Of a stretch of 64,000 nucleotides of DNA, positions 1-21,666 are shown piece after piece. Position 1 is the first letter of the stretch. Every line of letters begins with the position of its first letter. A program made the translations under genes and the position numbers. The stretch is from Acidobacteriota bacterium (GTDB lineage: Bacteria; Acidobacteriota; Aminicenantia; Aminicenantales; Saccharicenantaceae): NCBI GenBank assembly GCA_039683095.1, contig JBDKSB010000001.1, forward strand, positions 124,001 through 188,000. Reading direction: 5' to 3'. The notes beneath the pieces were generated by a model that ran no database searches, was not told where the DNA came from, and saw only the letters and a program-made list of their open reading frames with translations.

Positions 1-64
1 TTACAGGGCCAAGATGGCCGACAAGGTCGAAGCCGCTTCCCTCCAGCTCAAGGAGAAGCTCTAG
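1..64 (+). CDS. 3' end of an unidentified protein
   Basis: The first bases are the tail of a plus-strand gene in frame 2, ending at the TAG at 62-64. The readable residues are YRAKMADKVEAASLQLKEKL, a lysine- and glutamate-rich helical tail. The stop lies 9 bases before the mtaB start, so the gene is probably in the same transcription unit. Too little remains to name the product. Confidence 0.6.
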   Translation, partial: YRAKMADKVEAASLQLKEKL

Positions 65-73
65 CCGGCGGCG

Positions 74-1336
74 ATGGTCTCGTTTGCGATCCGGAATTTC
101 GGTTGCCGCGCCAACCAGGCCGACGCGTTCGCCTGGGCGGACGCTCTCGGCCGGAGCGGCCTGCGCCTCGAACGGGATTGGGCCCGTGGCGACGTCGTCG
201 TCGTCAATTCCTGCACGCTGACGGCGCGGGCCGACCGGGACGTCAAGAAGTTCATCCGCGCGGTCGCCCGCGAGAATCCGGCGTCCCGGATCGTCGTCGC
301 CGGGTGCTATGCCGAGCGAGCCCCGGCCGATCTGGCCGCGCTGCCGGGGGTGGCCGCCGTATTGCCGCGGCGGGCCGAACCAGATCTGGTCGAAAGGGTC
401 CTGGAGCTCGGGGGGCCGGGGGCGCGGACGGAAGAGCGCGCGCCGGACGACGCCTTCAGGGCCAGGGCCTTTCTGAGGGTCCAAGACGGCTGCGACAACC
501 GCTGCGCCTACTGCATCGTCCCCGGCGTCCGCGGCCCGAGCCGGAGCGTCCCGGGGGACACGGTTGCGGCCTCGGTCGCGGACCTGGCCCGGCGCGGCTT
601 CCGGGAGATCGTCCTGGCCGGCATCCATCTTTCCTCCTACGGCGAGGAGCTCGAGCCGCGAACGTCGCTCGCCGGGCTCCTGGCGGGCCTGCGGGGCCGG
701 ACCGGCCCGGCCCGGCTGCGGCTGACCTCGCTCGATCCGCGGCGGATGGACGACGCCCTGATCGGCTGCATCGTCTCTGACGCCGCGATCTGTCCCCACG
801 TCCATCTGTCCCTCCAGCATGCCTCGGCCGGCACGCTCCGGCTGATGGGCCGGCCCGTCGAGCCCGGACGCGCCGAGGCCATCCTGGAGCGGCTGGGCCG
901 GCTCGCCCCCGACGCGGCGATCGGGGCCGACCTCATGGCCGGCTTTCCCGGGGAGACGGAGTCCGATTTCGAGGCGACGAGGGCGCTCCTCGAGCGCTCG
1001 GCGCTGACCTACGCCCATGTCTTCCCGTACTCGCCCCGGCCGGGGACGCCGGCGGCCGCCCGGCCCCAAGTTCCGGCGGGCCTGGCCGCCGGGCGGGCCA
1101 GGGCCCTGCGGCGGGTCGCGGCCATGAAGGACTATCGCTTCCGGCGGCGCTTCGTCGGCCGGGAGCTCGAGGCCGTGGTCATCGACCGCCCGGCCGGCGG
1201 CGCCGGGGCGGAGGTCCTGACCGGCAACTTCATCAAGGTGTTCGTCCCGGCCTGCGCCGCCCCGCGGCGGGAGCTGGTCCGGGTGGCGGTCCGCCGCGTC
1301 CTGCCGCTCCGGACCGAAGGCGAGGTCGTGGCATGA
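74..1336 (+). CDS. mtaB: tRNA threonylcarbamoyladenosine methylthiotransferase MtaB
   Basis: This is a radical-SAM methylthiotransferase of the MiaB/RimO/MtaB family, which adds a methylthio group to t6A37 of ANN-decoding tRNAs. The N-terminal MTTase domain carries the three cluster-binding cysteines (C11 in NFGCRANQAD, C47 in NSCTL, C78 in GCYAE). The radical SAM motif C-x3-C-x2-C is at C140, C144 and C147. The length (420 residues) and the N-terminal wording FGCRANQAD fit MtaB better than MiaB or RimO; a C-terminal TRAM-like segment follows. The stop overlaps the mutL start (ATGA), so the two genes are translationally coupled. MtaB rather than MiaB is judged from motif wording only. Confidence 0.87.
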   Translation: MVSFAIRNFGCRANQADAFAWADALGRSGLRLERDWARGDVVVVNSCTLTARADRDVKKFIRAVARENPASRIVVAGCYAERAPADLAALPGVAAVLPRRAEPDLVERVLELGGPGARTEERAPDDAFRARAFLRVQDGCDNRCAYCIVPGVRGPSRSVPGDTVAASVADLARRGFREIVLAGIHLSSYGEELEPRTSLAGLLAGLRGRTGPARLRLTSLDPRRMDDALIGCIVSDAAICPHVHLSLQHASAGTLRLMGRPVEPGRAEAILERLGRLAPDAAIGADLMAGFPGETESDFEATRALLERSALTYAHVFPYSPRPGTPAAARPQVPAGLAAGRARALRRVAAMKDYRFRRRFVGRELEAVVIDRPAGGAGAEVLTGNFIKVFVPACAAPRRELVRVAVRRVLPLRTEGEVVA

Positions 1337-3117
1337 AGAAGATCCATCTCCTGCCGGACGACGTGGCCCGGAAGATCGCCGCGGGCGAGGTCATCGAGCG
1401 GCCGGTCTCCGTGGTCAAGGAGCTGGTCGAGAACGCCCTGGACGCCGGCGCGACGGACGTCCGCATCGACCTCGTCGACGGGGGCAAGACCCTGATCAGG
1501 GTCCGGGACGACGGCGCGGGCATGGACCGCGAGGACGCGGCCCTGTGCTTCCGCCGGCACTCGACCAGCAAGATCGCCAGGGAAGAGGACCTCGAGCGGA
1601 TCGCGACGCTCGGCTTCCGGGGCGAGGCCCTGGCCAGCATCGCGGCCGTCTCCCGGCTGACGCTCCGGACCTTCGACGGGACCGGCGACCGGGGCACGAT
1701 GATCGAGCGGGAGGGCGAACGCCTGGTCGCCGTCACGGACATCGCCTTTCCCCGGGGCTCGACGGTCGAGGTCCGCGACCTGTTCTTCAACCTCCCGGCC
1801 CGGCGCAAATTCCTGCGCAGCGGGACGTCCGAGCTCGGCCCCGTGGCTAAATATGTGACCCAGGCCGCGCTGGGCGCGCCGGGGACCCGCTTCACCCTTG
1901 TCCACGGGACGCGGGAGACGATCTCCTGCCCGCCCGTGGCCACGCTCCGGGAGCGGGTCTTCCAGCTTTTCGGCAAGAAGCTGGTCGACGGGCTCATGGA
2001 TGTCGCGGCCGAGGACGGGGAGGCCCGGGTCGATGGCTTGGCTTCGCTGCCCCTGGGCGGCCGCGGCGACAAGTCGGTGCAATACTTTTTCGTCAACGGC
2101 CGGCCGGTCAAGGACCGCATCCTGCTCGCCGCCCTGAGCCAGGCCTACACCGGCATCCTCGAGCGGGGCCGGTCTCCGGAGGCCTTCCTGTTCCTGCGGC
2201 TGCCGTATGCCGATGTGGACGTCAACGTCCATCCGGCCAAGGCCGAGGTCCGGTTCAGGGACACCCAGGTCGTCTTCAGGCTGGTGCTCCGGGCGGTCGG
2301 CGAAGGGGCCGCCCGCGGCCACACGATCAAGGAGGTCGCGCCGGGCCCGGGAAAGACGGCGGCCGGGCCACGGGTAGGAGAGGGCGGCGCGGATTACCAG
2401 GCCCCGGGGCTGGATTTCGGCCCGGGCGGCCCGGACGAGCATGCGGCGGGACCCGCGGCCGCCCGGTCGGACGGCATTGGCGGCGGGACCTGGGACATGT
2501 GCCGGAGGTACGCGCCCCCGCTTTCGGCGTCAGCTGCCCCGACGAGCCGCCCCGCGGTCCTCGGCCAGTTCGCGAACATGTACATCGTCGCGGCGGCGGC
2601 GGACGGTCTCCTCGTCGTCGACCAGCACAACGCCCACGAGCGCGTCCTGTTCGAAAGGTTCAGGGAGATCGACCGGCGCAAGCTCTGGCCCCGCAAGACT
2701 CCCCTCATCCCGGCCCTGATCGAGCTCGCGCCGCCGGCGGCGTCCAGCCTGGAGGAGAACGCGGCGGCGCTCGAGGAACTGGGTTTTCGGGTCGAAGCCA
2801 TGGGCGGCCGCTCCTACGCGCTCAAGGAATATCCCGACGTTTTCAAAGAGGAAGAAGCCCAGGCCGTCTTCCTGAGCCTGCTCGAGGAGGCCGGAGCGAA
2901 GGGGGCGGAGGACCGGCGCGAGCGGATGCTCGCGACCATGGCCTGCAAGTCGGCCGTCAAGGCCGGCGAGCCCCTGAACAGCGAAAAGATGGCCTACCTC
3001 GTCGAGGAGCTTTTCAAGACATCCCAGCCGGCCCTGTGCCCCCACGGCCGCCCGATCGTCGTCCGGGTCGAGAAGTCGGCCATCGACAAGGGGCTCGGAA
3101 GAAAAGGCCAGACGTAG
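1333..3117 (+). CDS. mutL: DNA mismatch repair protein MutL (endonuclease type)
   Basis: MutL couples mismatch recognition by MutS to strand incision and excision. The N-terminal GHKL ATPase is clear: VENALDAGA with the Mg-binding Asn at residue 34, DDGAGM near 60 and GFRGEAL near 98. A linker rich in Gly, Pro and Ala covers roughly residues 330-410. The C-terminal dimerisation domain has DQHNAHERVLFE near residue 430, matching the metal-binding motif DQHA-x2-E-x4-E of incision-competent MutL except for Asn in place of Ala. It also has ACKSAVKAG and CPHGRP. This points to a methyl-independent repair system. The length of 594 residues is normal. The start overlaps the mtaB stop. Confidence 0.95.
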   Translation: MKKIHLLPDDVARKIAAGEVIERPVSVVKELVENALDAGATDVRIDLVDGGKTLIRVRDDGAGMDREDAALCFRRHSTSKIAREEDLERIATLGFRGEALASIAAVSRLTLRTFDGTGDRGTMIEREGERLVAVTDIAFPRGSTVEVRDLFFNLPARRKFLRSGTSELGPVAKYVTQAALGAPGTRFTLVHGTRETISCPPVATLRERVFQLFGKKLVDGLMDVAAEDGEARVDGLASLPLGGRGDKSVQYFFVNGRPVKDRILLAALSQAYTGILERGRSPEAFLFLRLPYADVDVNVHPAKAEVRFRDTQVVFRLVLRAVGEGAARGHTIKEVAPGPGKTAAGPRVGEGGADYQAPGLDFGPGGPDEHAAGPAAARSDGIGGGTWDMCRRYAPPLSASAAPTSRPAVLGQFANMYIVAAAADGLLVVDQHNAHERVLFERFREIDRRKLWPRKTPLIPALIELAPPAASSLEENAAALEELGFRVEAMGGRSYALKEYPDVFKEEEAQAVFLSLLEEAGAKGAEDRRERMLATMACKSAVKAGEPLNSEKMAYLVEELFKTSQPALCPHGRPIVVRVEKSAIDKGLGRKGQT

Positions 3118-3181
3118 GAAAGCCGGGGCCAGGAAAGACGAAACCAGGAAAGAAGGGACCAGGTCTTCGCAGGCGGCCAAA

Positions 3182-3211
3182 TTGACACCCAGTCACCGCG
3201 TCGGTTAAGAT
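3182..3211 (+). promoter_or_regulatory. Sigma-70-type promoter of the tRNA pair
   Basis: TTGACA at 3182-3187 and TAAGAT at 3206-3211 are separated by 18 bp and lie about 20 bp before tRNA-Pro. The same TAAGAT -10 hexamer occurs in the pilB promoter of this window, which supports the call. The tail of the integrated recombinase frame on the other strand ends inside this promoter. Confidence 0.6.
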
Positions 3212-5019
3212 ACATCGACTGAATGGAACGGGGAGTGGCGCAGCCTGGCTAGCGCGCCTGCCTTGGGAGCAGGAGGTCGGCGGTTCAAATCCGCTCTCCC
3301 CGATGTCTTCCTCACGCCGCCTCGACGCGCCTGTAGCTCAGGTGGATAGAGCAGCTGCCTTCTAAGCAGCGGGTCGGGGGTTCGAGTCCCTCCAGGCGCG
3401 CCAACTTTAATTTCAGGCGTTTTTCCGGGTTTTTCCGAGCCGGAATCACCCTCGGGGACCGCCTTCATCGCCTTGATGAACCCTCTCTTGGCTAGGTCCA
3501 GAAAAGGTTGATTCCAATGGAATTGGAACTTGTCGTAGGTCAAGTATTCGTCCGTTTCCGTCAGCGGGAGCAGGGTGGGTTCGCGGTAGACCTCGACGGT
3601 TCTAAACAGGAGGGAATTCAGTTTCTGCCGTTTTTCCGGTGATGCGTGTAAGTATATATTTTTCAACGCCTTAGAAAATTCTAGAATTTCCCTCATGTCC
3701 TGGACGTCCCCGGCGAGATTGCCCGTCTTGACGGACTCCAGATGGCTCTCGATCTCGGAACGCTCGGTAGCGGCCTCCTCCAACTGCCTCATGAAGGATT
3801 CTTGGACGCGCAGGGAGGCCTTCGCCATGTTGTCGGTAAGGAACTTCTCCTTCGCCTTTAGCTCGGTCAACCTTGCGCTCAGGGTCGTGATCTTGTCGCG
3901 GTTCATCTGGGCGAGCAGTTTGATCCCGTCTTCGAGCTGATCTTTAACCTCTAGGTAGACCTTCTCGTCCACGTCCAGGGCCTCGATGGCCGCGCTGAAC
4001 GCTTCGTCGATCTCACGCCCCTTGAGATAGGGCTTTCGATAGTTAGGACAGCCGGGCGTACTACAATGGTAGTAGTGGTGGACCTTTTTATCGCCGGACT
4101 TCAAGTCCTTGATCTGCTCGTCGCCACCGAAGCCGTTCGTGCATAGATGGCAAGTGAGGAGGCCTTTATACCGGAAGTCCTTCCCGCGCTTGATGAGCCG
4201 CTTGCCGCCGAGAATATCCTGGACCTGGTCCCATTGGGCCTTGGAGATGAGGGGTTCGTAGTTCCCTCGGTTGGAGTACTTGACCCCCTTGATGGGAATG
4301 ACCCCGTAGTAGTAGGGATGCCGGAGGTAGTCATTAATTTGGTCGGAGTTGAGCGCCCGACCAGTATCGGACCGGAGCCCCATATCGCGGGCCTTCCGCA
4401 TTAGCTCGGTCTTATTCCTCTCGCCGGTGGCGATGACGTATTCGAACAGCCGCTTGATAATCGGGGCCCGGTCCGGGTCCTGCACGGGGACCTTGACCCA
4501 CTTCCCATCGACTAGCTTCGGCACAGAGAGGTAACCGATCGGCTTCTTGTGTGGGTACCGACCCAGGGCTCCTTGTGTCTGCCAGGCCTCGGTCACTTGG
4601 CTGGAATTATCGTCCGAATCCTCAGTCGCCTTGACTAGCTCTCGTTCGAACGCACGAGTCCTCTTTCGATCCTCAGGTTCTTGGGATAGTGGGCTGAAGG
4701 CCTCCTTGGTTACGGCGTTGTGATGCCGAACCCCGGTGTCGCGCAACGGAAGCCAGTCATCGAGATTACGGGCGATCCGAGAAGGGATAAAGAATATCAG
4801 GTGCTGAATCTTCTCGGCTTTGATCTGCTTGATCATCGCTTTGTACTTCGGTCTCTTGCCCGCTTTCCAAGCAGAATCCGTCTCCTCGACTATCCTATCT
4901 CCGATATCAAGCCCATGTTCGCGGGCGTATTCGAGGCACTTGTTAAGCTGGGTGATAGGGGAGAACGCATCTTGGGCCTTCGTGCTGACCCGGATGTAGC
5001 AGATCGCCTTTTCGCCCAT
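3205..5019 (-). CDS. Large serine recombinase (integrase) read through attL
   Basis: The N-terminal resolvase domain has the nucleophile Ser12 in YIRVSTKAQ. A recombinase domain follows (KKPIGY, then PYYYGVI), then a zinc ribbon (CHLC ... CSTPGC, about residues 310-345) and a long coiled coil rich in Glu, Lys and Leu. This is the architecture of phage and ICE large serine integrases, which cut with 2-bp overhangs. The genuine protein probably ends near PEIKVGAPGGT: beyond the att core the frame runs antisense through tRNA-Arg and tRNA-Pro, giving the familiar pseudo-peptides TRTPDPLLRRQ and ADLNRRPPAPKAG before stopping at 3205. In a circular element the same frame would instead read 18 codons from the right end and stop at 20613. 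The start follows the ATG at 5019. Confidence 0.85.
   Translation of the reverse strand: MGEKAICYIRVSTKAQDAFSPITQLNKCLEYAREHGLDIGDRIVEETDSAWKAGKRPKYKAMIKQIKAEKIQHLIFFIPSRIARNLDDWLPLRDTGVRHHNAVTKEAFSPLSQEPEDRKRTRAFERELVKATEDSDDNSSQVTEAWQTQGALGRYPHKKPIGYLSVPKLVDGKWVKVPVQDPDRAPIIKRLFEYVIATGERNKTELMRKARDMGLRSDTGRALNSDQINDYLRHPYYYGVIPIKGVKYSNRGNYEPLISKAQWDQVQDILGGKRLIKRGKDFRYKGLLTCHLCTNGFGGDEQIKDLKSGDKKVHHYYHCSTPGCPNYRKPYLKGREIDEAFSAAIEALDVDEKVYLEVKDQLEDGIKLLAQMNRDKITTLSARLTELKAKEKFLTDNMAKASLRVQESFMRQLEEAATERSEIESHLESVKTGNLAGDVQDMREILEFSKALKNIYLHASPEKRQKLNSLLFRTVEVYREPTLLPLTETDEYLTYDKFQFHWNQPFLDLAKRGFIKAMKAVPEGDSGSEKPGKTPEIKVGAPGGTRTPDPLLRRQLLYPPELQARRGGVRKTSGRADLNRRPPAPKAGALARLRHSPFHSVDVS
3230..3303 (+). 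tRNA. tRNA-Pro(UGG)
   Basis: A 74-nt cloverleaf with acceptor stem CGGGGAG/CTCCCCG and discriminator A. The anticodon stem CCTGC/GCAGG encloses loop CTTGGGA, giving anticodon TGG (reads CCA proline codons). The T arm is GCGG-TTCAAAT-CCGC. The 3' CCA is not encoded, unlike in the tRNA-Arg 23 bases downstream. Confidence 0.93.
3327..3403 (+). tRNA. tRNA-Arg(UCU), integration target
   Basis: A 77-nt cloverleaf including an encoded CCA. The acceptor stem is GCGCCTG/CAGGCGC with discriminator G. The anticodon stem GCTGC/GCAGC encloses CTTCTAA, giving anticodon TCT (AGA arginine codons). The last 18 bases up to the first C of CCA are repeated at 20669-20686. The chromosomal side of the right junction continues with TTCC, so the uninterrupted gene would not have encoded CCA; the final CA here is supplied by the inserted element. 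Confidence 0.94.
3384..3401 (+). repeat. attL core, copy of the tRNA-Arg 3' end
   Basis: The 18 bases gagtccctccaggcgcgc belong to the T arm and acceptor stem of tRNA-Arg and recur exactly at 20669-20686. The sequences diverge immediately on both sides (c...caac here, a...ttcc at the other end), which defines the core. Confidence 0.85.
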
Positions 5020-5075
5020 ATAGCGGCCTCGGTTCTAAATATAAACCAGCTCACGAATAATGTCAAGAGATTTCC

Positions 5076-5315
5076 TTATGGAGCCCAGACTTCGCAAGGG
5101 AAGACCTTATACAGCCCGTCGAGGAACCTCTGCTTAAAGCCGGGCGCGATCGGGGCCTCATCGTCATAGGCGACGCAACGCCAGAGCACGCCGTCTGGGC
5201 CCTCCACTTCGAAGCACTCTGTATGGACCTCGATCGCCTCGACATACTGCATCACCACCTGGGCCAGCAGGTCATCGAGACTTTCATGATCAGACCATCG
5301 GAACTTTTCCATCAT
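5076..5315 (-). CDS. Small acidic hypothetical protein
   Basis: A 79-residue acidic protein (MMEKFRWSDHESLDDLLAQ...) with several Asp/Glu and aromatic residues and no recognised family. Its ATG overlaps the stop of the upstream RRM gene (ATGA), so the two are translationally coupled and probably share a role. It lies 56 bases before the recombinase start. Confidence 0.6.
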   Translation of the reverse strand: MMEKFRWSDHESLDDLLAQVVMQYVEAIEVHTECFEVEGPDGVLWRCVAYDDEAPIAPGFKQRFLDGLYKVFPCEVWAP

Positions 5316-5605
5316 CTCCCCCAGTGCGGCATCTGCCGCCGTTCGTTATTCGGTCTCTCACGGCGTGGAAGAGCGCGGCTGACGTGGAGGACCCGGTCCA
5401 TGAAGAGTGTAGTATCCAACGACTCGATAGCTTTCATGGCCTCATGATGATCCGGCATCGTTATGAACGAGAAGCCCCGAGACCGCGACCCGATCCCTTC
5501 GGCCCGGACGATCTCGACCTGCTCCACCTTCCCGTATTGTTCAAACAAGGCCCGGACATCGGCCTCTGTTGCGTCGAAATTCAGGCTTCCAACGTAGATT
5601 CGCAT
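5312..5605 (-). CDS. RNA recognition motif (RRM) protein
   Basis: A 97-residue single-domain RNA-binding protein. RNP2 is IYVGSL at residues 3-8 and RNP1 is SRGFSFITM near residue 47, with the aromatic residues that stack on RNA bases. The layout beta-alpha-beta-beta-alpha-beta is complete and is followed by a basic tail (PRRERPNNERRQ). Bacterial proteins of this type bind single-stranded RNA and are often cold-induced, but they are uncommon in phage-like elements. A good ribosome site (AAGGAG, 7 bases before ATG) marks the start, and the stop overlaps the next gene. Its target is unknown. Confidence 0.85.
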   Translation of the reverse strand: MRIYVGSLNFDATEADVRALFEQYGKVEQVEIVRAEGIGSRSRGFSFITMPDHHEAMKAIESLDTTLFMDRVLHVSRALPRRERPNNERRQMPHWGR

Positions 5606-5718: not shown

Positions 5719-7329
5719 TTACCTCCTGATAATCCTGCTTAGACCGCCAGGCCCCGGTGAGAGAAAGTCGTGCATCTCCTTCTCAAGGTCCTCGCGTGCA
5801 TCGAGCGCTCGTCCGAGAGGACTCATATGCTGTTTAGCGGGAAGGTGCGCGTTCATTTCCTTCTCGTCCCAAACGGTCCCTCTCGCCGCAAACACGAGCG
5901 CCCCAACGACGGCGTTGCAGAGGTCGTCGTGCGAATTGTCAGGATGCAGGACTATGTCCTTTCCAGAGCGACCGGTTCTGCGTTCCAAGCTCAACAGCTG
6001 GACGATCAGACGCTCGTCGTTGATAATCTCGCATCGAGCCATCGTAAAGAGAGCCTGACCCTCAAGATACAAGTCCGAAGCAGAGAGGTCCGAGACATCA
6101 ACACGAATTCCTTGTTTTCTGAAGGCCTCGGCAACCCATTCTCCAGCGTATCTATCGCTGGAGACACAATGACACCCATAACTTTTCAGGATACCCGCAA
6201 ACTCCTCGGCGATCTTCGAAGGGTCAAACGGGGGTCTCCGTTCTTCTATCCGGTCGAGTAGGACTTTCTCTCCTTCCCGATGGCAGATCGCCAGGGCGAA
6301 AGAATCATTCCGCCCACCACTGGGGTCTATATGAGCGACATACCTGAGTTTTGGATCGGGTAATGATAAACTTCGCGTTGCGGCCCCACGAACCAGGTCC
6401 TCGTTCAAAAAATCGGATATATCATCTCTGAATTCCGAATAGAACTCAGACCTATATCGCAATGGGTCTCTCAAAATGAGTCGGTCAATCGTGGCCTGAG
6501 AGAAGGTAGGGTTCATTTCTGTGGTGATAGCATGAAACACAAGCTCGTCCGAATCCTTGGCAAAGGCGTTCTTGTACGTTTGATAAAGGTAGCCTGATTT
6601 CTTGTACACGGTGCTGATCGCGATGAGCCGCGCGTTGGGCTTCATCGAGGGCAGAATGGCTGTGATTACCTCTTCAGCAGGATTCGCCGAATTCTCATCC
6701 CGCCAGAACGCGATTTCGTCCGCGACGACTGCGATTGTACTGAAGCCTCGAACGCCCTTGAAAGAACATGTCTTCACCCCTACGGCAGTCCCGTTACAGA
6801 GAAAAATCTCATCCGCCGTCTCGCGCTCAATCATGTCCGGAAAAAGAGAGAGTAAGCTTCGCACATACCCCAGCACAATCTGACTCTGCTGACGGTCATT
6901 CGAGATGCAAAAGGCCCATCCTCGTTCGCCGGGGGCGAGTTCTTTTTCATGGCCGCCCCACAACGCCTCGTAGGCGGTGATGAGACCGGAAATTCTCGAT
7001 TTTCCGCTTCGCCGCCCGGAGACACAGAGGGCAGAATGATACCCCTCGGACCGAGCCGTCTCGCGTCCTGTGAAGTGCTGAAACAAGGACAGCTCGTCCT
7101 CGTCCAGAGGGAGACCGTACAGGCCCTTGAGTAGGATAGTCCAGGCGGCCCAGGTATCGTTAGGCGTGAACGCGGTTCCGAAGAACCTATCGTCCATCAT
7201 GGCCTCGATGATGTCACGGGGCCGCGCGGGGATCTTCCGAGAATGGAAATAACAGAAGTCGGAATCGGCGACGCACCATGACCCGCATTGGCGTCCGTCT
7301 GGATGGATGAACGTGCATTGGGCGGGCAT
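5719..7329 (-). CDS. terL: Terminase large subunit
   Basis: The DNA-packaging motor of tailed phages. The ATPase has a Walker A motif GRRSGKS at residues 105-111, Walker B VVADE near 200, and a coupling motif LIAISTVYKKSG. The C-terminal RNase-H-like nuclease starts with VAHIDPSGGRNDSFALAI, whose Asp is a metal ligand. An N-terminal zinc knuckle (C5, C15, C19, C26, H29) is an addition also seen in some phage and mobile-element proteins. The length of 536 residues is normal. No small terminase subunit is evident next to it. The start lies 2 bases after the upstream stop with no strong ribosome site, so translation is probably coupled. Confidence 0.9.
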   Translation of the reverse strand: MPAQCTFIHPDGRQCGSWCVADSDFCYFHSRKIPARPRDIIEAMMDDRFFGTAFTPNDTWAAWTILLKGLYGLPLDEDELSLFQHFTGRETARSEGYHSALCVSGRRSGKSRISGLITAYEALWGGHEKELAPGERGWAFCISNDRQQSQIVLGYVRSLLSLFPDMIERETADEIFLCNGTAVGVKTCSFKGVRGFSTIAVVADEIAFWRDENSANPAEEVITAILPSMKPNARLIAISTVYKKSGYLYQTYKNAFAKDSDELVFHAITTEMNPTFSQATIDRLILRDPLRYRSEFYSEFRDDISDFLNEDLVRGAATRSLSLPDPKLRYVAHIDPSGGRNDSFALAICHREGEKVLLDRIEERRPPFDPSKIAEEFAGILKSYGCHCVSSDRYAGEWVAEAFRKQGIRVDVSDLSASDLYLEGQALFTMARCEIINDERLIVQLLSLERRTGRSGKDIVLHPDNSHDDLCNAVVGALVFAARGTVWDEKEMNAHLPAKQHMSPLGRALDAREDLEKEMHDFLSPGPGGLSRIIRR

Positions 7330-7331
7330 GG

Positions 7332-7979
7332 CTACATTCGGGCTTGAAGCATACGGAGTCGGCGGATCAGGTCTTCAGGAACAGGACCGTCAAGTGAGGG
7401 GGCAGAACGCAAGGCTTCTTCTCGAAGGTCCTTGAGGGTCTGGAGGAGGACTTCGTTCTTGTCGGCCACGGTCGTAAGCCGATCGTGCTCGGTGTCGAAG
7501 ACTTGATAATCGCCGCGAAATCCCATTTTCCGGAGACTGGCGAGCGCTTTCTGATCGGAGCCGGATGCCTGCTCTTTCCCGGCGTGATTGTGGATGATCG
7601 CTTTGAGGCCGGACAGGTAGAATTTCTTAGCGCGGAGGGTGTCGAACAGTTCTTGTCCTGTGAGCGAAACCTGATTCGCCTCCCCGGAGGAGATGGACAC
7701 GAACGTTCCATCGTCCTTGAGGAAGATCATCGTCTCGCCCTGCTCGGAACCCCAGCCGCGGTACAGGCGGTGGAGTTCGGAGGTTAGGTCATCTGTATTG
7801 ATTGTGCCCGTTTCCACTTTCTTTCCTTTCCCAACTCCACCAGTCCCGGCCTTGCTCCCTCCTTGCTTCCCAGGTCGGCCCTTGTGGCCGAAGTTGCCGG
7901 AGCCCTTGCCGCCCTCTGCCAGAGAGGCCTTGATGAGGCGGACTTTCTCGGTGAGCGTCATTGCTGAAGTATTGAGCAT
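7332..7979 (-). CDS. Head-module protein with a JAB/MPN-like metalloprotease signature
   Basis: The N-terminus carries the linker GGKGSGNFGHKGRPGKQGG, a signature common in phage head-morphogenesis and portal-linked proteins. Residues about 130-145 read IIHNHAGKEQASGSD, close to the JAMM zinc-protease motif H-x-H-x7-S-x2-D but with one residue fewer between the second His and the Ser. The protein may be a virion-associated isopeptidase-like or structural protein. Its start overlaps the 3' end of the cysteine-rich gene by 22 bases, and its stop lies 2 bases before terL. Activity is uncertain because of the spacing change. Confidence 0.65.
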   Translation of the reverse strand: MLNTSAMTLTEKVRLIKASLAEGGKGSGNFGHKGRPGKQGGSKAGTGGVGKGKKVETGTINTDDLTSELHRLYRGWGSEQGETMIFLKDDGTFVSISSGEANQVSLTGQELFDTLRAKKFYLSGLKAIIHNHAGKEQASGSDQKALASLRKMGFRGDYQVFDTEHDRLTTVADKNEVLLQTLKDLREEALRSAPSLDGPVPEDLIRRLRMLQARM

Positions 7980-8419
7980 TCCTCACCTTGGCACGTATCG
8001 CAGGATTCGCAAGAGTAGCAGACCGCGCAAGCCGGGCCTTGACCTGAGCCGCAGTACCCTCCCTCACAGGCATAACAGGACTGACAGGTCTGGCACGACA
8101 GCTGGCACCCCATACAGGTCACGCATGACCCACAATTAGCCTGTTGGCAGATGTCGCAGGTTCCGCAGGCGTAGACGCGATTGCACCCCATCACCGCACC
8201 GCACTGGTTCGTGTTGCAGATCATGCACTGGTTGCAGGCCTCGCACGCCGGACATTGGCCAGTTATACAGCCCTGACAGGTGTTACATAGTTCGCAGACC
8301 GGGCAGAGATTCGGGCCGACTTCGATCTGACAATTAACGCAGATTTGACAATCGGCGCAGTTCAGCGCGTCGCAGTTCTGACAGGAATTGCAACTTTGAC
8401 AGGTGCTACAAGAGGCCAT
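7958..8419 (-). CDS. Extremely cysteine-rich C-x2-C repeat protein
   Basis: I count 39 cysteines in 153 residues, nearly all spaced as C-x2-C or C-x3/4-C (CQSCNSCQNC, CPVCELCNTC, CMICNTNQC, CQTCQSCYAC). Charged and hydrophobic residues are scarce. No signal peptide is present, so the protein stays in the cell or the particle. The spacing would suit multiple zinc, iron-sulfur or other soft-metal sites, or a disulfide-crosslinked scaffold. It starts one base after the upstream cysteine-rich gene (TAA-C-ATG) and sits between a prohead protease and terL, so a role in the particle or its assembly is inferred. I do not recognise a family. Confidence 0.8.
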   Translation of the reverse strand: MASCSTCQSCNSCQNCDALNCADCQICVNCQIEVGPNLCPVCELCNTCQGCITGQCPACEACNQCMICNTNQCGAVMGCNRVYACGTCDICQQANCGSCVTCMGCQLSCQTCQSCYACEGGYCGSGQGPACAVCYSCESCDTCQGEECSILQQ

Positions 8420-8420
8420 G

Positions 8421-8645
8421 TTAGGCCTGTTTCACATTGCACTGTTCACAGCTCACACAGATTCTGCATTCATTCTGCTGAACCGACACGCACTGCTGGC
8501 AAACAAAGCAGGAGGAGCAACGCTCGCGCGTCTCATCGTTGGCCCATTCGGGTTTGATTTTCCCGCCGTTGGCACGGATATCGTCAGCGGTTATGCGCGG
8601 CGATATATCCGCTTGGCACGAGTAGCAGTTCTTGCAGTCGTCCAT
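8421..8645 (-). CDS. Small cysteine-rich companion protein
   Basis: 74 residues with 11 cysteines in two blocks: CKNCYSC at the N-terminus and CSSCFVCQQC...CRICVSCEQC at the C-terminus, separated by a charged stretch (DDIRANGGKIKPEWANDETRE). It resembles a shortened version of the next gene. It starts one base after the preceding stop and ends one base before the next ATG, so the three genes are coupled. Metal binding is inferred from the C-x2-C pairs only. Confidence 0.75.
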   Translation of the reverse strand: MDDCKNCYSCQADISPRITADDIRANGGKIKPEWANDETRERCSSCFVCQQCVSVQQNECRICVSCEQCNVKQA

Positions 8646-8646
8646 G

Positions 8647-9252
8647 TTACCACCTCACAGCCGGGTGACTATGTCGGCGCTCGACCTGCTCCTTGGCGCG
8701 CTTCTTCAACGCGGCCTCGACCTCCTGCATCTCACTCGCGGTGCGTTCAGTGCGGAGGAGCTTGACCTCGGTTTTGGTAACAAGGTAGTCGTGGTCCTCG
8801 GCGGGAGCCTGCTCAGTTACTTCTCGCCACTCGATCCTGCGAAGACGGATGTAGGGGGAATCGAGGAAGAGGGGCACAAGGCGCGGGACGCCTTTATAAA
8901 CGGAGACCGCCTCGCCGTGTGGGCCGTGCGGGTAGAAGACTTGGATGGGCTCGGGCGAGTTGTTAGCGCACTCCAGCAGGAAGAGACCCCGCCAGTGGTC
9001 CGGTGCGCGCCAGGCTTTGTTCCACTCAACTTCTACCCGGTCCTTGGGGAGGAACGTGATTCTTGAAAACGGAGCATAATAGACGCTCCGGTCATACATT
9101 TCGACCAGGAATGTCTGGCCTGGAAGGACTTCAAGGAGGACCCTCCCGCCAAACTCCAGCACCTGGACCGGCTCGGCGCGCTTATTGACAAACTCGCAGG
9201 AGAGGTCCTCGGCGGGACTTACTTCGTTAGGGATTGCTAGTGTCTCGTTCAC
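8647..9252 (-). CDS. Uncharacterised beta-rich element protein, paralogue A
   Basis: 201 residues starting at a GTG that overlaps the protease stop (GTGA). The segment FVNKRAEPVQVLEFGG...VLPGQTF...YYAPFSRITF aligns by eye with the protein at 10383-11009 (FWNKTPVKQSVFDDTG...VAPGDII...LYAPYAEVIF). A second related half follows in both. The pattern of alternating hydrophobics suggests beta-sandwich domains. The C-terminus is a basic/acidic helix (TERTASEMQEVEAALKKRAKEQVERR). Position beside the prohead protease suggests a structural protein. Confidence 0.65.
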   Translation of the reverse strand: MNETLAIPNEVSPAEDLSCEFVNKRAEPVQVLEFGGRVLLEVLPGQTFLVEMYDRSVYYAPFSRITFLPKDRVEVEWNKAWRAPDHWRGLFLLECANNSPEPIQVFYPHGPHGEAVSVYKGVPRLVPLFLDSPYIRLRRIEWREVTEQAPAEDHDYLVTKTEVKLLRTERTASEMQEVEAALKKRAKEQVERRHSHPAVRW

Positions 9253-9467
9253 TTGGCGGCCTCCTTCTCCAGGAAGTCCAAGTACTCCTCAAAAGTCAGC
9301 TTGCACCCCGCCGCGAGTGCCTTGCCATACTCATCGCGGGCCTTCGTCAGCAGTTCCATGCTCTCATGGTCCTCGTTCATCTCTCGGATGTCTTCTCGGG
9401 AGAGTTTTGTGCCCGCGAAAAGCGCCTCCGCGTATTTTCGATCGAGTTCTTCTTCAGTAAGTTTCAT
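9249..9467 (-). CDS. Possible nested scaffold translated from inside the protease gene
   Basis: An in-frame ATG at 9465-9467 is preceded by AAAGGAAAC with about 5 bases spacing. The resulting 72-residue product, MKLTEEELDRKYAEALF..., is acidic and helical, and its first residues resemble the protease N-terminus MKLTEFLDTE. Phages such as lambda make scaffold from an internal start inside the protease gene (C/Nu3); the same arrangement is inferred here. Confidence 0.4.
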   Translation of the reverse strand: MKLTEEELDRKYAEALFAGTKLSREDIREMNEDHESMELLTKARDEYGKALAAGCKLTFEEYLDFLEKEAAK

Positions 9468-9986
9468 CGCAGTTTCCTTTCTGTCTTCTATAGGGGCGGA
9501 CTCGCAGACCATCTCCATTCCCGCATACATGCCCGACGCGGGGGACAGCACGAAGTCCAGGCCCTCCATCGAGTACCCCTGGTTGACAATCTCCTGGCCC
9601 TCGGCAACACGAACCTCGCCGCGGCCACGGGCCGATACCCCGATTCGACCGCCATTCTTGAGGATGACCTGGAGGTCATGGCCCTTCTCGGTCGGGAGGA
9701 TTTTCAAGGTCGCTACGGCGGTCTTGCCCTTCATCTTCACATCCTCGATGATGTGGGAGACATCAGGCACCTCGAGCCGATCCTTGTGTGAGGTGGAACC
9801 GTAGCCGGTCGCTTTCGAGAGACGTTTCTTGAGACCTTCGACCGCCGCTGAGAGGACCGATAGCGGATAGAGCCGATGATTCGCGGTCTGCTTGTCTGCC
9901 TCTAAAAACGGGACCTCCATGCGGAGCGCACCGTCCGAGGACTCATTCAGTTGTGATTCGGTATCAAGAAATTCAGTGAGTTTCAT
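9249..9986 (-). CDS. Prohead core protease, gp21/S80-like
   Basis: This looks like the head maturation protease that cleaves scaffold and capsid proteins. Features are NHRLYP near residue 36, a candidate catalytic His67 in TSHKDRLEVPDVSHII, and a candidate Ser118 in NGGRIGVSARGRG, the same order and wording as T4 gp21-type proteases. After about residue 170 the sequence becomes acidic and helical, like a scaffold. An internal ATG at 9467 has its own ribosome site (see next entry). The stop overlaps the next gene. No major capsid gene, its expected substrate and neighbour, was recognised. Confidence 0.75.
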   Translation of the reverse strand: MKLTEFLDTESQLNESSDGALRMEVPFLEADKQTANHRLYPLSVLSAAVEGLKKRLSKATGYGSTSHKDRLEVPDVSHIIEDVKMKGKTAVATLKILPTEKGHDLQVILKNGGRIGVSARGRGEVRVAEGQEIVNQGYSMEGLDFVLSPASGMYAGMEMVCESAPIEDRKETAMKLTEEELDRKYAEALFAGTKLSREDIREMNEDHESMELLTKARDEYGKALAAGCKLTFEEYLDFLEKEAAK

Positions 9987-12417: not shown

Positions 12418-13038
12418 TTACCCTTTCTTGAACCTCTCCAACGCGCGCTCCGCCTGCCGTTGGTCCAGCTCGAGGTCCACAGCGTGGTCCACGTACCGTT
12501 TGCTGGAGTCGATCTCTCGGTGCCGGAGCCATGACGCCACCTGGGCCAACCCTTCCTTGTTCCGCACGAGTTCCTGCGCCGTCGTGTGGCGGAGATCGTG
12601 GACGCTATGACCTTTCAGCCCGGCCTTCTTGGCGATCGCGTAGAATGCGAACTGAATACCCTCGGGGATCATGTGGCCTGTTTCGTGGAAGTCTCGATGC
12701 GGGAAGAGATAGGGGTTCTTGTCCGCGCCTTGTAGTTTCTTCCTATCGGCAAGCCAGTGTTTCAGCATCTTCTGGTACGGCTCTGGGAATGGGTAGGGCC
12801 GCTTAAGACCGTTCTTGAGGCCTTGGATGGTCACGAAGTTAGGGGGATCGGAGAACGCATCGAGACGGAGCGCGGCACACTCGGCCACCCTCAGGGCCAG
12901 ATAGCTGATCAGGTTGAACATCAACGCGTACTTCCGGCTCTCCGCTTCTGCGGTCTTGAGGAACTTGGCCAGCTCGTCCTGGGTGAGATACCGGGTAGGG
13001 GGAAGGGGAGTTGCTCGCCAATCGCCGGACTTGGGCAT
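12418..13038 (-). CDS. Compact tyrosine recombinase
   Basis: A 206-residue catalytic domain with the full active set: Arg50 (LALRVAE), His147 and Arg150 (HDLRH), His173 (WLRHREI) and nucleophile Tyr182 (KRYVDH). The N-terminal arm-binding and SAM-like core domains of normal integrases are missing. The start is taken at MPKSGDW because AAGGAG lies 8 bases before it; an upstream ATG at 13056 has none. It is the first gene behind the strong minus-strand promoter at 13.1 kb. It may resolve multimers, assist integration at the tRNA, or invert DNA; the presence of a serine recombinase as well makes its role open. Confidence 0.82.
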   Translation of the reverse strand: MPKSGDWRATPLPPTRYLTQDELAKFLKTAEAESRKYALMFNLISYLALRVAECAALRLDAFSDPPNFVTIQGLKNGLKRPYPFPEPYQKMLKHWLADRKKLQGADKNPYLFPHRDFHETGHMIPEGIQFAFYAIAKKAGLKGHSVHDLRHTTAQELVRNKEGLAQVASWLRHREIDSSKRYVDHAVDLELDQRQAERALERFKKG

Positions 13039-13098
13039 CCCGTTTCTCCTTAGCAATCCCGACCTAAGTGTTGTATTATCAGCACCTTGGCACTATGT

Positions 13099-20655: not shown

Positions 20656-21666
20656 TCACCTCGTTGCAGAGTCCCTCCAGGCGCGCTTCCGTGTTCTTGG
20701 CCGGCTCTTTTTCGGCGGCTTGTCGCTCCCTGACGGCGTCGATCGGCGCAAGCTGGTGATGTCGCGCAGGGGCGGCGCGCCAAACAGGCGAGCATACTCG
20801 CGGCTGAACTGGGAAGGGCTCTCATAGCCGACCTGGAACGCCGCAGTTGCCGCATCCCGATCCTCGGAGAGCATTAACCGCCGGGCTTCGTTCAAGCGCA
20901 ACCATTTTTGGTATTGCAGGGGGCTCATGGCAGTCACGGCCCGGAAATGATGGTGAAAAGTCGACGCGCTCATGTGGACCCGTCGCGCGAGAGCGTCGAT
21001 GTGTAACGGCTGCGAGAAGTTGTCCTTCAGCCAATTGATGACCCGCGCGATCTGATGGCTTTGACTTCCCGCAGAAGCCATCCGGCGCAGCCGGACCCCC
21101 TGATCGCCGACGAGCAGACGATAGAAGATCTCCCGTTGGATGATCGGCGCAAGGACGGGAATATCCTCAGGCTCGGCAAGCAAGTCGACCAGGCGCTGAA
21201 AGGCGGCGAGCAGGGAAAGTGTGACCTGGCCGGTCGCCATGGCCCGGCTCGAATGCTGGGGCCTCGGGGCGGGCAAATGGCTATCCACCATCAGTTGTGA
21301 GAGCTCGCGCGGGTCGAGCTTCAAGACGAGCCCCAGGTAGGGCTTCTCCCGGCTCGCCATGATGATCCGTACGACTGTGGGCAGGTCCACGGACGCGATC
21401 AGATAGTGCCTGGCGTCATACACATAGGTGTCATCCCCGAGCCACACGCGTTTGGCCCCTTGCGCGATCAAACAGATGCGAGGTTCGTACAGGACCGTGG
21501 TCGGGGGGCTCGGTTCATCACGCCGATGAAGAGACAATCCCGGGATTCCCGCTTCGTGGTAGTCGCCTTTCTCGGTCCATCGGGCAATGCTCTTTCCCAG
21601 CGCCTCGAGCGCAATGTCGATGGCGCCCCCATTCTCGATCATCTGCTTAGAGGGCTGTTTATCCAC
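20656..21666 (-). CDS. AraC-family transcriptional regulator
   Basis: 336 residues from a GTG at 21664-21666, which has AGGAG 6 bases upstream; the frame extends further upstream to 21744 without a ribosome site. An N-terminal cupin-like AraC_N sensing domain (residues about 30-190) is followed by two helix-turn-helices: ALARRVHMSASTFHHHFRAV and TAAFQVGYESPSQFSREYARLFG, the classical signature PLQYQKWLRLNEARRLM between. It probably controls the divergent cupin-to-flavodoxin genes. The final residues are encoded by the att core. Confidence 0.9.
   Translation of the reverse strand: MDKQPSKQMIENGGAIDIALEALGKSIARWTEKGDYHEAGIPGLSLHRRDEPSPPTTVLYEPRICLIAQGAKRVWLGDDTYVYDARHYLIASVDLPTVVRIIMASREKPYLGLVLKLDPRELSQLMVDSHLPAPRPQHSSRAMATGQVTLSLLAAFQRLVDLLAEPEDIPVLAPIIQREIFYRLLVGDQGVRLRRMASAGSQSHQIARVINWLKDNFSQPLHIDALARRVHMSASTFHHHFRAVTAMSPLQYQKWLRLNEARRLMLSEDRDAATAAFQVGYESPSQFSREYARLFGAPPLRDITSLRRSTPSGSDKPPKKSRPRTRKRAWRDSATR
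20669..20686 (+). repeat. attR core
   Basis: Exact second copy of gagtccctccaggcgcgc from the tRNA-Arg 3' end. It lies inside the last codons of the AraC gene on the opposite strand. In the empty chromosome the AraC frame would read into the tRNA and end DSNPRPAA; after integration it ends DSATR. Confidence 0.85.

Follow-up and report, generated by a model that had tools for sequence, protein, structure and literature searches.

Two cysteine-rich genes in a packaging operon

We analysed a 64-kb stretch of Acidobacteriota DNA (contig JBDKSB010000001.1; hereafter the window), part of a 3.29-Mb assembly that is 95% complete. Two adjoining minus-strand genes in it, here called Cys1 and Cys2, encode cysteine-rich proteins and are members of a tightly coupled head/packaging operon. 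The pair and its neighbours are as follows.

7958-8419, minus strand: Cys1, a CxxC-array protein (family alignment and N-terminal hidden Markov model (HMM) score)
8421-8645, minus strand: Cys2, a stand-alone homologue of the N-terminal domain of viral radical S-adenosylmethionine (SAM)/SPASM maturases (profile score)
7332-7961, minus strand: gene with a GSGNFGH motif, overlapping the Cys1 stop (sequence)
8647-9252, minus strand: gene directly upstream of Cys2, with homologues in the sister elements L028 and L024 (sequence comparison)
9249-9986, minus strand: prohead protease, Peptidase_S77 / T4 gp21 type (Pfam 1.8e-9; phrog_207 1.7e-29)
5719-7329, minus strand: TerL, the terminase large subunit, with an N-terminal Cys/His motif (phrog_2 5e-24; homologues within the class)

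Cys1 has 153 residues with 39 cysteines and 27 CxxC pairs, and Cys2 has 74 residues with 11 cysteines and eight CxxC pairs. An original prediction, made from the letters of the window, had described both reading frames as coupled by single-base spacing and lying between a prohead protease and a terminase. The open reading frames (ORFs), their coordinates and their cysteine counts were all verified, on the minus strand and with ATG starts. The single-base spacing held at both junctions, from the stop of the upstream gene (8647) to the start of Cys2 (8645) and from the stop of Cys2 (8421) to the start of Cys1 (8419). For Cys2 there is a strong ribosome-binding sequence (GAGGTGG), and the TGA of Cys1 overlaps the ATG of the next gene at 7961. 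The protease and the terminase do flank the pair, but one gene intervenes on each side (8647-9252 and 7332-7961).

Neither protein had any match in Pfam or NCBIfam, to a metal-binding family or otherwise, and their matches in the PDB were weak and confined to CXXC fingers (E 0.015). A second genome of the same genus (G009, locus L034) carries the same pair, likewise beside the same kinds of protease and TerL. Together with the N-terminal shuffle test described below, this recurrence argues that the pair is not a product of chance.

CxxC arrays, tail-tip proteins and radical SAM/SPASM genes

A single-sequence search with Cys1 gave no matches in viral contigs and one weak match, from Campylobacter, in phages; a terminase-first search of viral contigs found no relatives. 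A spacing pattern of nine cysteines returned mainly nucleotide-repeat artefacts, with L048 and L099 as the only clear relatives, and a tighter DNA pattern of Cys, Gln/Glu and Asn/Asp codons was used instead. Matches to this pattern numbered 27 among viral contigs and 55 among genome contigs, and nucleotide-repeat artefacts were removed from them before true arrays were listed. True CxxC-array proteins occurred in viral contigs and in metagenome-assembled genomes (MAGs) of Bathyarchaeota, Thermoprotei/Methanodesulfokora, Brockarchaeota, Woesearchaeota, Clostridiales and others. A scan across the class covered 142 genomes, and the pattern was confined to two of them, the window genome and G009. 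The relatives of Cys1 thus found are those of tailed viruses of bacteria and archaea, with CxxC arrays that are either free or placed at the C-terminus of a tail-tip protein. These homologues adjoin terminases or tail genes, and the association with phages therefore survives the objection, raised by the original prediction against itself, that only low-complexity noise might be found.

A profile was made from six relatives, leaving out the window and G009, and the N-terminal 74 residues of Cys1 scored 114.9 bits with it. The best of 3000 Cys-preserving shuffles reached 87.9 bits and none reached 114.9 bits, indicating that homology to the free arrays extends beyond the spacing of the cysteines. 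The full-length HMM score was dropped as a homology test, since Cys density alone scores high.

The residue at position i+4 from Cys follows a rule. Family-wide it was D, E, N or Q in 529 of 657 cases (81%; 239 expected, z=28.7) and D or E in 214 of 657; S or T occurred in 0/657, against 165 expected. In Cys1 of the window, 27 of 38 such residues were D/E/N/Q, eight of the 38 being D/E. The cross-links made by PapB run from Cys to Asp or Glu within CX3D/E motifs (PMC9413430). At the level of sequence, the CX3[DENQ] pattern of the arrays is close to this motif and would allow links of the PapB kind.

The best structural matches of the array-bearing tail protein were the T5 pb3 tail-tip protein (2.7e-18) and lambda J-like tail-tip proteins; the model was of moderate confidence outside the array, and the arrays were not confidently modelled. 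The array forms the C-terminus of the tail-tip protein, replacing or extending it. In lambda J, the C-terminus is the receptor-contacting part. Most array relatives are located in tail modules, and a role specifically as a head component is not supported. High Cys content within a packaging operon would also suit a disulfide-cross-linked head protein that is oxidised after release. We consider this most improbable, given that the relatives are linked to tail tips and to maturases and that the cytoplasm is reducing; the use of reducing conditions as an argument against disulfides before release was correct in the original prediction, which overall is partly supported.

The first case of an adjoining enzyme was viral contig L048, where a tail-tip protein ending in a CxxC array is followed by a free array protein and then by a radical SAM/SPASM protein. 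A search with L048-type enzymes found further loci of the same gene order. When the array-first scan was combined with an HMM search for radical SAM proteins, a radical SAM ORF lay close by at 14 distinct array loci, some in viral contigs and others in MAGs of bacteria and archaea (L048, L176, L179, L183, L184/L253, L185, L187, L188, L197, L199, L201/L218, L209, L211 and L222). We used this array-first count, since the 14/14 figure obtained by profile search is not independent, its profile having been seeded from array loci. A radical-SAM-first search found L171/L172, L290 and L283, with Cys-rich neighbours at each. The best NCBIfam match of the maturases was NF047865, the thioether-forming ranthipeptide maturase PapB (E 1e-54 to 1e-83), followed by QHNDH, SCIFF and nif11-like maturases.

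When a profile was built from the N-termini of three viral maturases, Cys2 scored 43.8 bits with it, compared with 22.9 bits for the best of 2000 Cys-preserving shuffles. Cys2 of the window was also retrieved, independently, when the whole genome was searched with the L048 enzyme (42% over about 50 residues). The archaeal loci have a separate gene for a small Cys2-like protein, between the arrays and the enzyme; elsewhere this protein is the N-terminus of the enzyme. The alignment places the end of Cys2 at the point where the catalytic domain would start. Judged by these comparisons, Cys2 is a stand-alone N-terminal domain of a radical SAM/SPASM maturase, and the membership of Cys1 and Cys2 in a virus-borne family of CxxC arrays with radical SAM/SPASM maturases is well supported.

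Other radical SAM loci were seen in the same searches. More distant phage loci (L281, L283, L290 and L315) have Cys-rich neighbours of other designs. In L281 (7166-8689) and L283 (3284-4393), the radical SAM gene is followed directly by long CQxxC/CQxxxC arrays, the pairing recurring there with a different spacing. In L315 (7914-8789), a CNCNYCT repeat protein overlaps the end of the radical SAM gene, and the contig has at least four radical SAM genes. Human-gut phage matches (L261-L264) had no Cys arrays in the DNA examined around them and were left uncounted. Intein-like insertions lie exactly at the radical SAM Cys motif in L179 (7273-9597), L211 (1-1694) and L287 (5512-7167), with the junctions CNLRC/HVAGTRVLMSD..., CRYCLRKGTRILMAD... 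and CKYCAPAGTKILMAD.... A radical SAM/SPASM gene in G009 (G009:C7:101522-102091; L257) lies downstream of a gene for a twin-arginine-like, Cys-containing precursor and looks like an ordinary cellular peptide-modification locus.

Proposed cross-linking, possible metal binding and the absent maturase

At three terminase-linked loci the Cys1/Cys2 pair has no maturase in its vicinity: the window, L034 and L245. The last is a Woesearchaeota MAG contig with a protease and a TerL that is 33% identical to the TerL of the window. Cys2 precedes Cys1 in the window and in L245 and follows it in L034. The strongest radical SAM match in the host (G000:C12, 188 bits) is without the Cys N-domain; it looks chromosomal because close orthologues are found in two other genomes of the genus.

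From the gene order of the array loci, a complete system would comprise an array at the tail-tip C-terminus, a free companion array and an adjoining PapB-like radical SAM/SPASM enzyme. This enzyme may form thioether cross-links from Cys to the Asp, Glu, Asn or Gln at i+4, and the cross-links would turn a flexible array into a rigid appendage, resistant to oxygen and proteases, at the receptor-contacting end of the tail. Our best explanation of the window, on which our judgement is evenly balanced, is that Cys1 is the free array of such a virus-borne modification system and that Cys2 is a detached maturase N-domain, both carried by a satellite-like element, with the maturase acting in trans. 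The array would then be modified and used only when a maturase is supplied, presumably by a helper virus, and Cys2 might serve as the recognition or adaptor part for that enzyme.

The main rival is that both proteins fold around metal, with their CxxC pairs holding Zn2+ or Fe-S clusters, giving a metal-stabilised particle component or a metal store that remains unmodified. CxxC spacing is typical of Zn and Fe-S ligation, the host group is anaerobic, and the element and its host are both without a maturase, as a metal array would allow. However, metal binding leaves unexplained why a radical SAM/SPASM maturase adjoins most array loci, it does not require the D/E/N/Q rule at i+4, and Cys2 is a maturase domain by its profile score. 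The adjoining PapB-like maturase and the maturase N-domain as the second protein argue for post-translational cross-linking rather than simple metal storage, and we regard the metal array as a serious but unlikely alternative.

Alternatively, the pair might be the decayed remnant of a full array/maturase cassette that has lost its catalytic half, which would agree with the end of Cys2 at the catalytic boundary. This seems distinctly improbable. In the window, L034 and L245 alike, the ORFs of Cys1 and Cys2 are intact, their operons are coupled and no maturase accompanies them, and the gene order of L034 differs from that of the window and L245; decay would not preserve the pair.

Several observations weigh against our best explanation. 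Neither the window element nor the host genome (95% complete) nor G009 yielded a maturase with the Cys N-domain, and modification in this host is therefore conjectural. Every maturase scores under the curated cut-off of the PapB family NF047865. Half of the i+4 residues are Gln or Asn, which are not reported as acceptors in the PapB paper (PMC9413430). An unrelated-looking Campylobacter array beats Cys1 on full-length HMM score, so that bulk scores of this kind are driven by Cys. Finally, no confident fold was obtained for Cys1 (AlphaFold pLDDT 48).

Among characterised systems, PapA/PapB is the nearest: its maturase family is the best match, and there too a Cys-rich substrate adjoins the maturase gene. 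Apart from the Gln/Asn residues and the sub-threshold scores, the present systems differ from it in their substrates, which are not small peptides but long proteins of virion type and the C-terminus of a tail-tip protein, in the Cys-rich N-domain of the maturases and, in the window, in the lack of a maturase. The CXXX-repeat peptide (TIGR04115) and SCIFF (TIGR03974) systems are cellular peptide systems. They likewise tie radical SAM/SPASM enzymes to repetitive Cys-rich targets, but they score lower than PapB and the systems described here are virus-borne.

Campylobacter Firehammervirus genomes offer a further parallel (phrog_15341), with a period-3 Cys array just 3' of the portal gene of a virulent phage that has 11-12 radical SAM proteins. 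There, however, the residues between the cysteines are rich in K, D, E and N, the array is not beside a maturase, and a link to the present family is unproven. A Cys array of the Campylobacter-phage type also occurs in Helicobacter sp. MIT 05-5294 (L225, 4829-5368), probably within a prophage. The 11-12 radical SAM proteins of CP220-type phages are described as unexplained (PMC2853527). In viruses of methanogens and methanotrophs, tail spikes are among the most Cys-rich proteins and one virus has 15 radical SAM enzymes (PMC9723712). In the portions of these two papers drawn on here, Cys-rich proteins and radical SAM enzymes are not connected, and for the tail spikes no array/maturase cassette is described. 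No published description of the pairing was found in the open literature searched; a prior description is possible.

The known targets of radical SAM/SPASM maturases are small peptides and a few enzymes. In the viruses of bacteria and archaea described here, the partners of such maturases are long Cys arrays, placed where the tail contacts the receptor. If cross-linking occurs as proposed, virions can be built with radical-forged cross-links, a new and testable tail-fibre chemistry, and this would suggest why Campylobacter CP220 and similar phages carry a dozen unexplained radical SAM genes. The twist of the window is an element that would keep the substrate and the recognition domain and not the enzyme.

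The window element and its sister elements

The remaining features of the element are as follows.

3205-5019, minus strand: large serine recombinase at the left end of the element (family searches)
3384-3401, no strand: putative attL, an 18-bp repeat at the 3' end of tRNA-Arg(TCT) (repeat match)
5312-5605, minus strand: RRM RNA-binding protein (Pfam RRM_1 2.7e-17; counterparts in L028, L024 and L034 by inspection)
12418-13056, minus strand: tyrosine integrase of the element core (Pfam 4e-22; common to L028, L024 and L034)
20669-20686, no strand: putative attR, the second copy of the 18-bp repeat (repeat match)

The two repeats, at 3384-3401 and 20669, suggest an integrated element of roughly 17 kb. 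The C-terminus of the serine recombinase reads across tRNA-Pro/tRNA-Arg. No portal or tail families were matched among the window-element ORFs scanned. Recombinases, 18-bp repeats, TerL and a protease in such a setting are what is expected of a phage satellite, and by its gene content the element looks satellite-like. Capsid-forming satellites of the cf-PICI type have packaging and head-maturation genes and no tail. Like them, the window element is small and integrative and has genes for packaging and head maturation; it differs in also being without recognisable capsid and portal genes.

Two sister elements are without the Cys pair, L028 from another family of the order and L024 from the window's own genome. 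They have in common a core order of tyrosine integrase, 10383-like gene, S77 protease, TerL and serine recombinase, plus the RRM gene. L034, from the same genus, additionally has a gp23-type major capsid protein (6.9e-31).

A satellite with packaging genes and no tail genes could also use the pair as a decoy, competing with the tail array and maturase of a helper and so spoiling or diverting the maturation of helper tails. Cys2 as a maturase N-domain without catalysis and Cys1 as a mimic of the natural substrate would suit this role. We nevertheless think it improbable: no helper virus has been identified, and the pair is absent from the two sister elements. More broadly, it is conceivable, if rather unlikely, that the satellite turns the helper's radical SAM enzyme to its own use or sabotages it, which would make virion cross-linking a battleground between virus and satellite.

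The gene at 7332-7961 encodes a GKGSGNFGHKGRPGKQGGS motif near its N-terminus and had no significant Pfam or PHROG match. By eye, its HNHAGKEQASGSD stretch (HNH..SGSD) is JAMM metalloprotease-like and one residue too short.

RRM proteins recur in small TerL/prohead-protease elements (window 5312-5605, L028 6648-6914, L034 11033-11280 and L024 8248-8520), which is unusual for phage-related elements. L028 (691-8820, G041:C277) and L024 (G000:C12) are compact, with a tyrosine integrase, gp21-type protease, TerL, RRM protein and serine recombinase and no recognisable capsid, portal or tail genes. Elements of this type possibly represent an undescribed satellite family in Aminicenantes.
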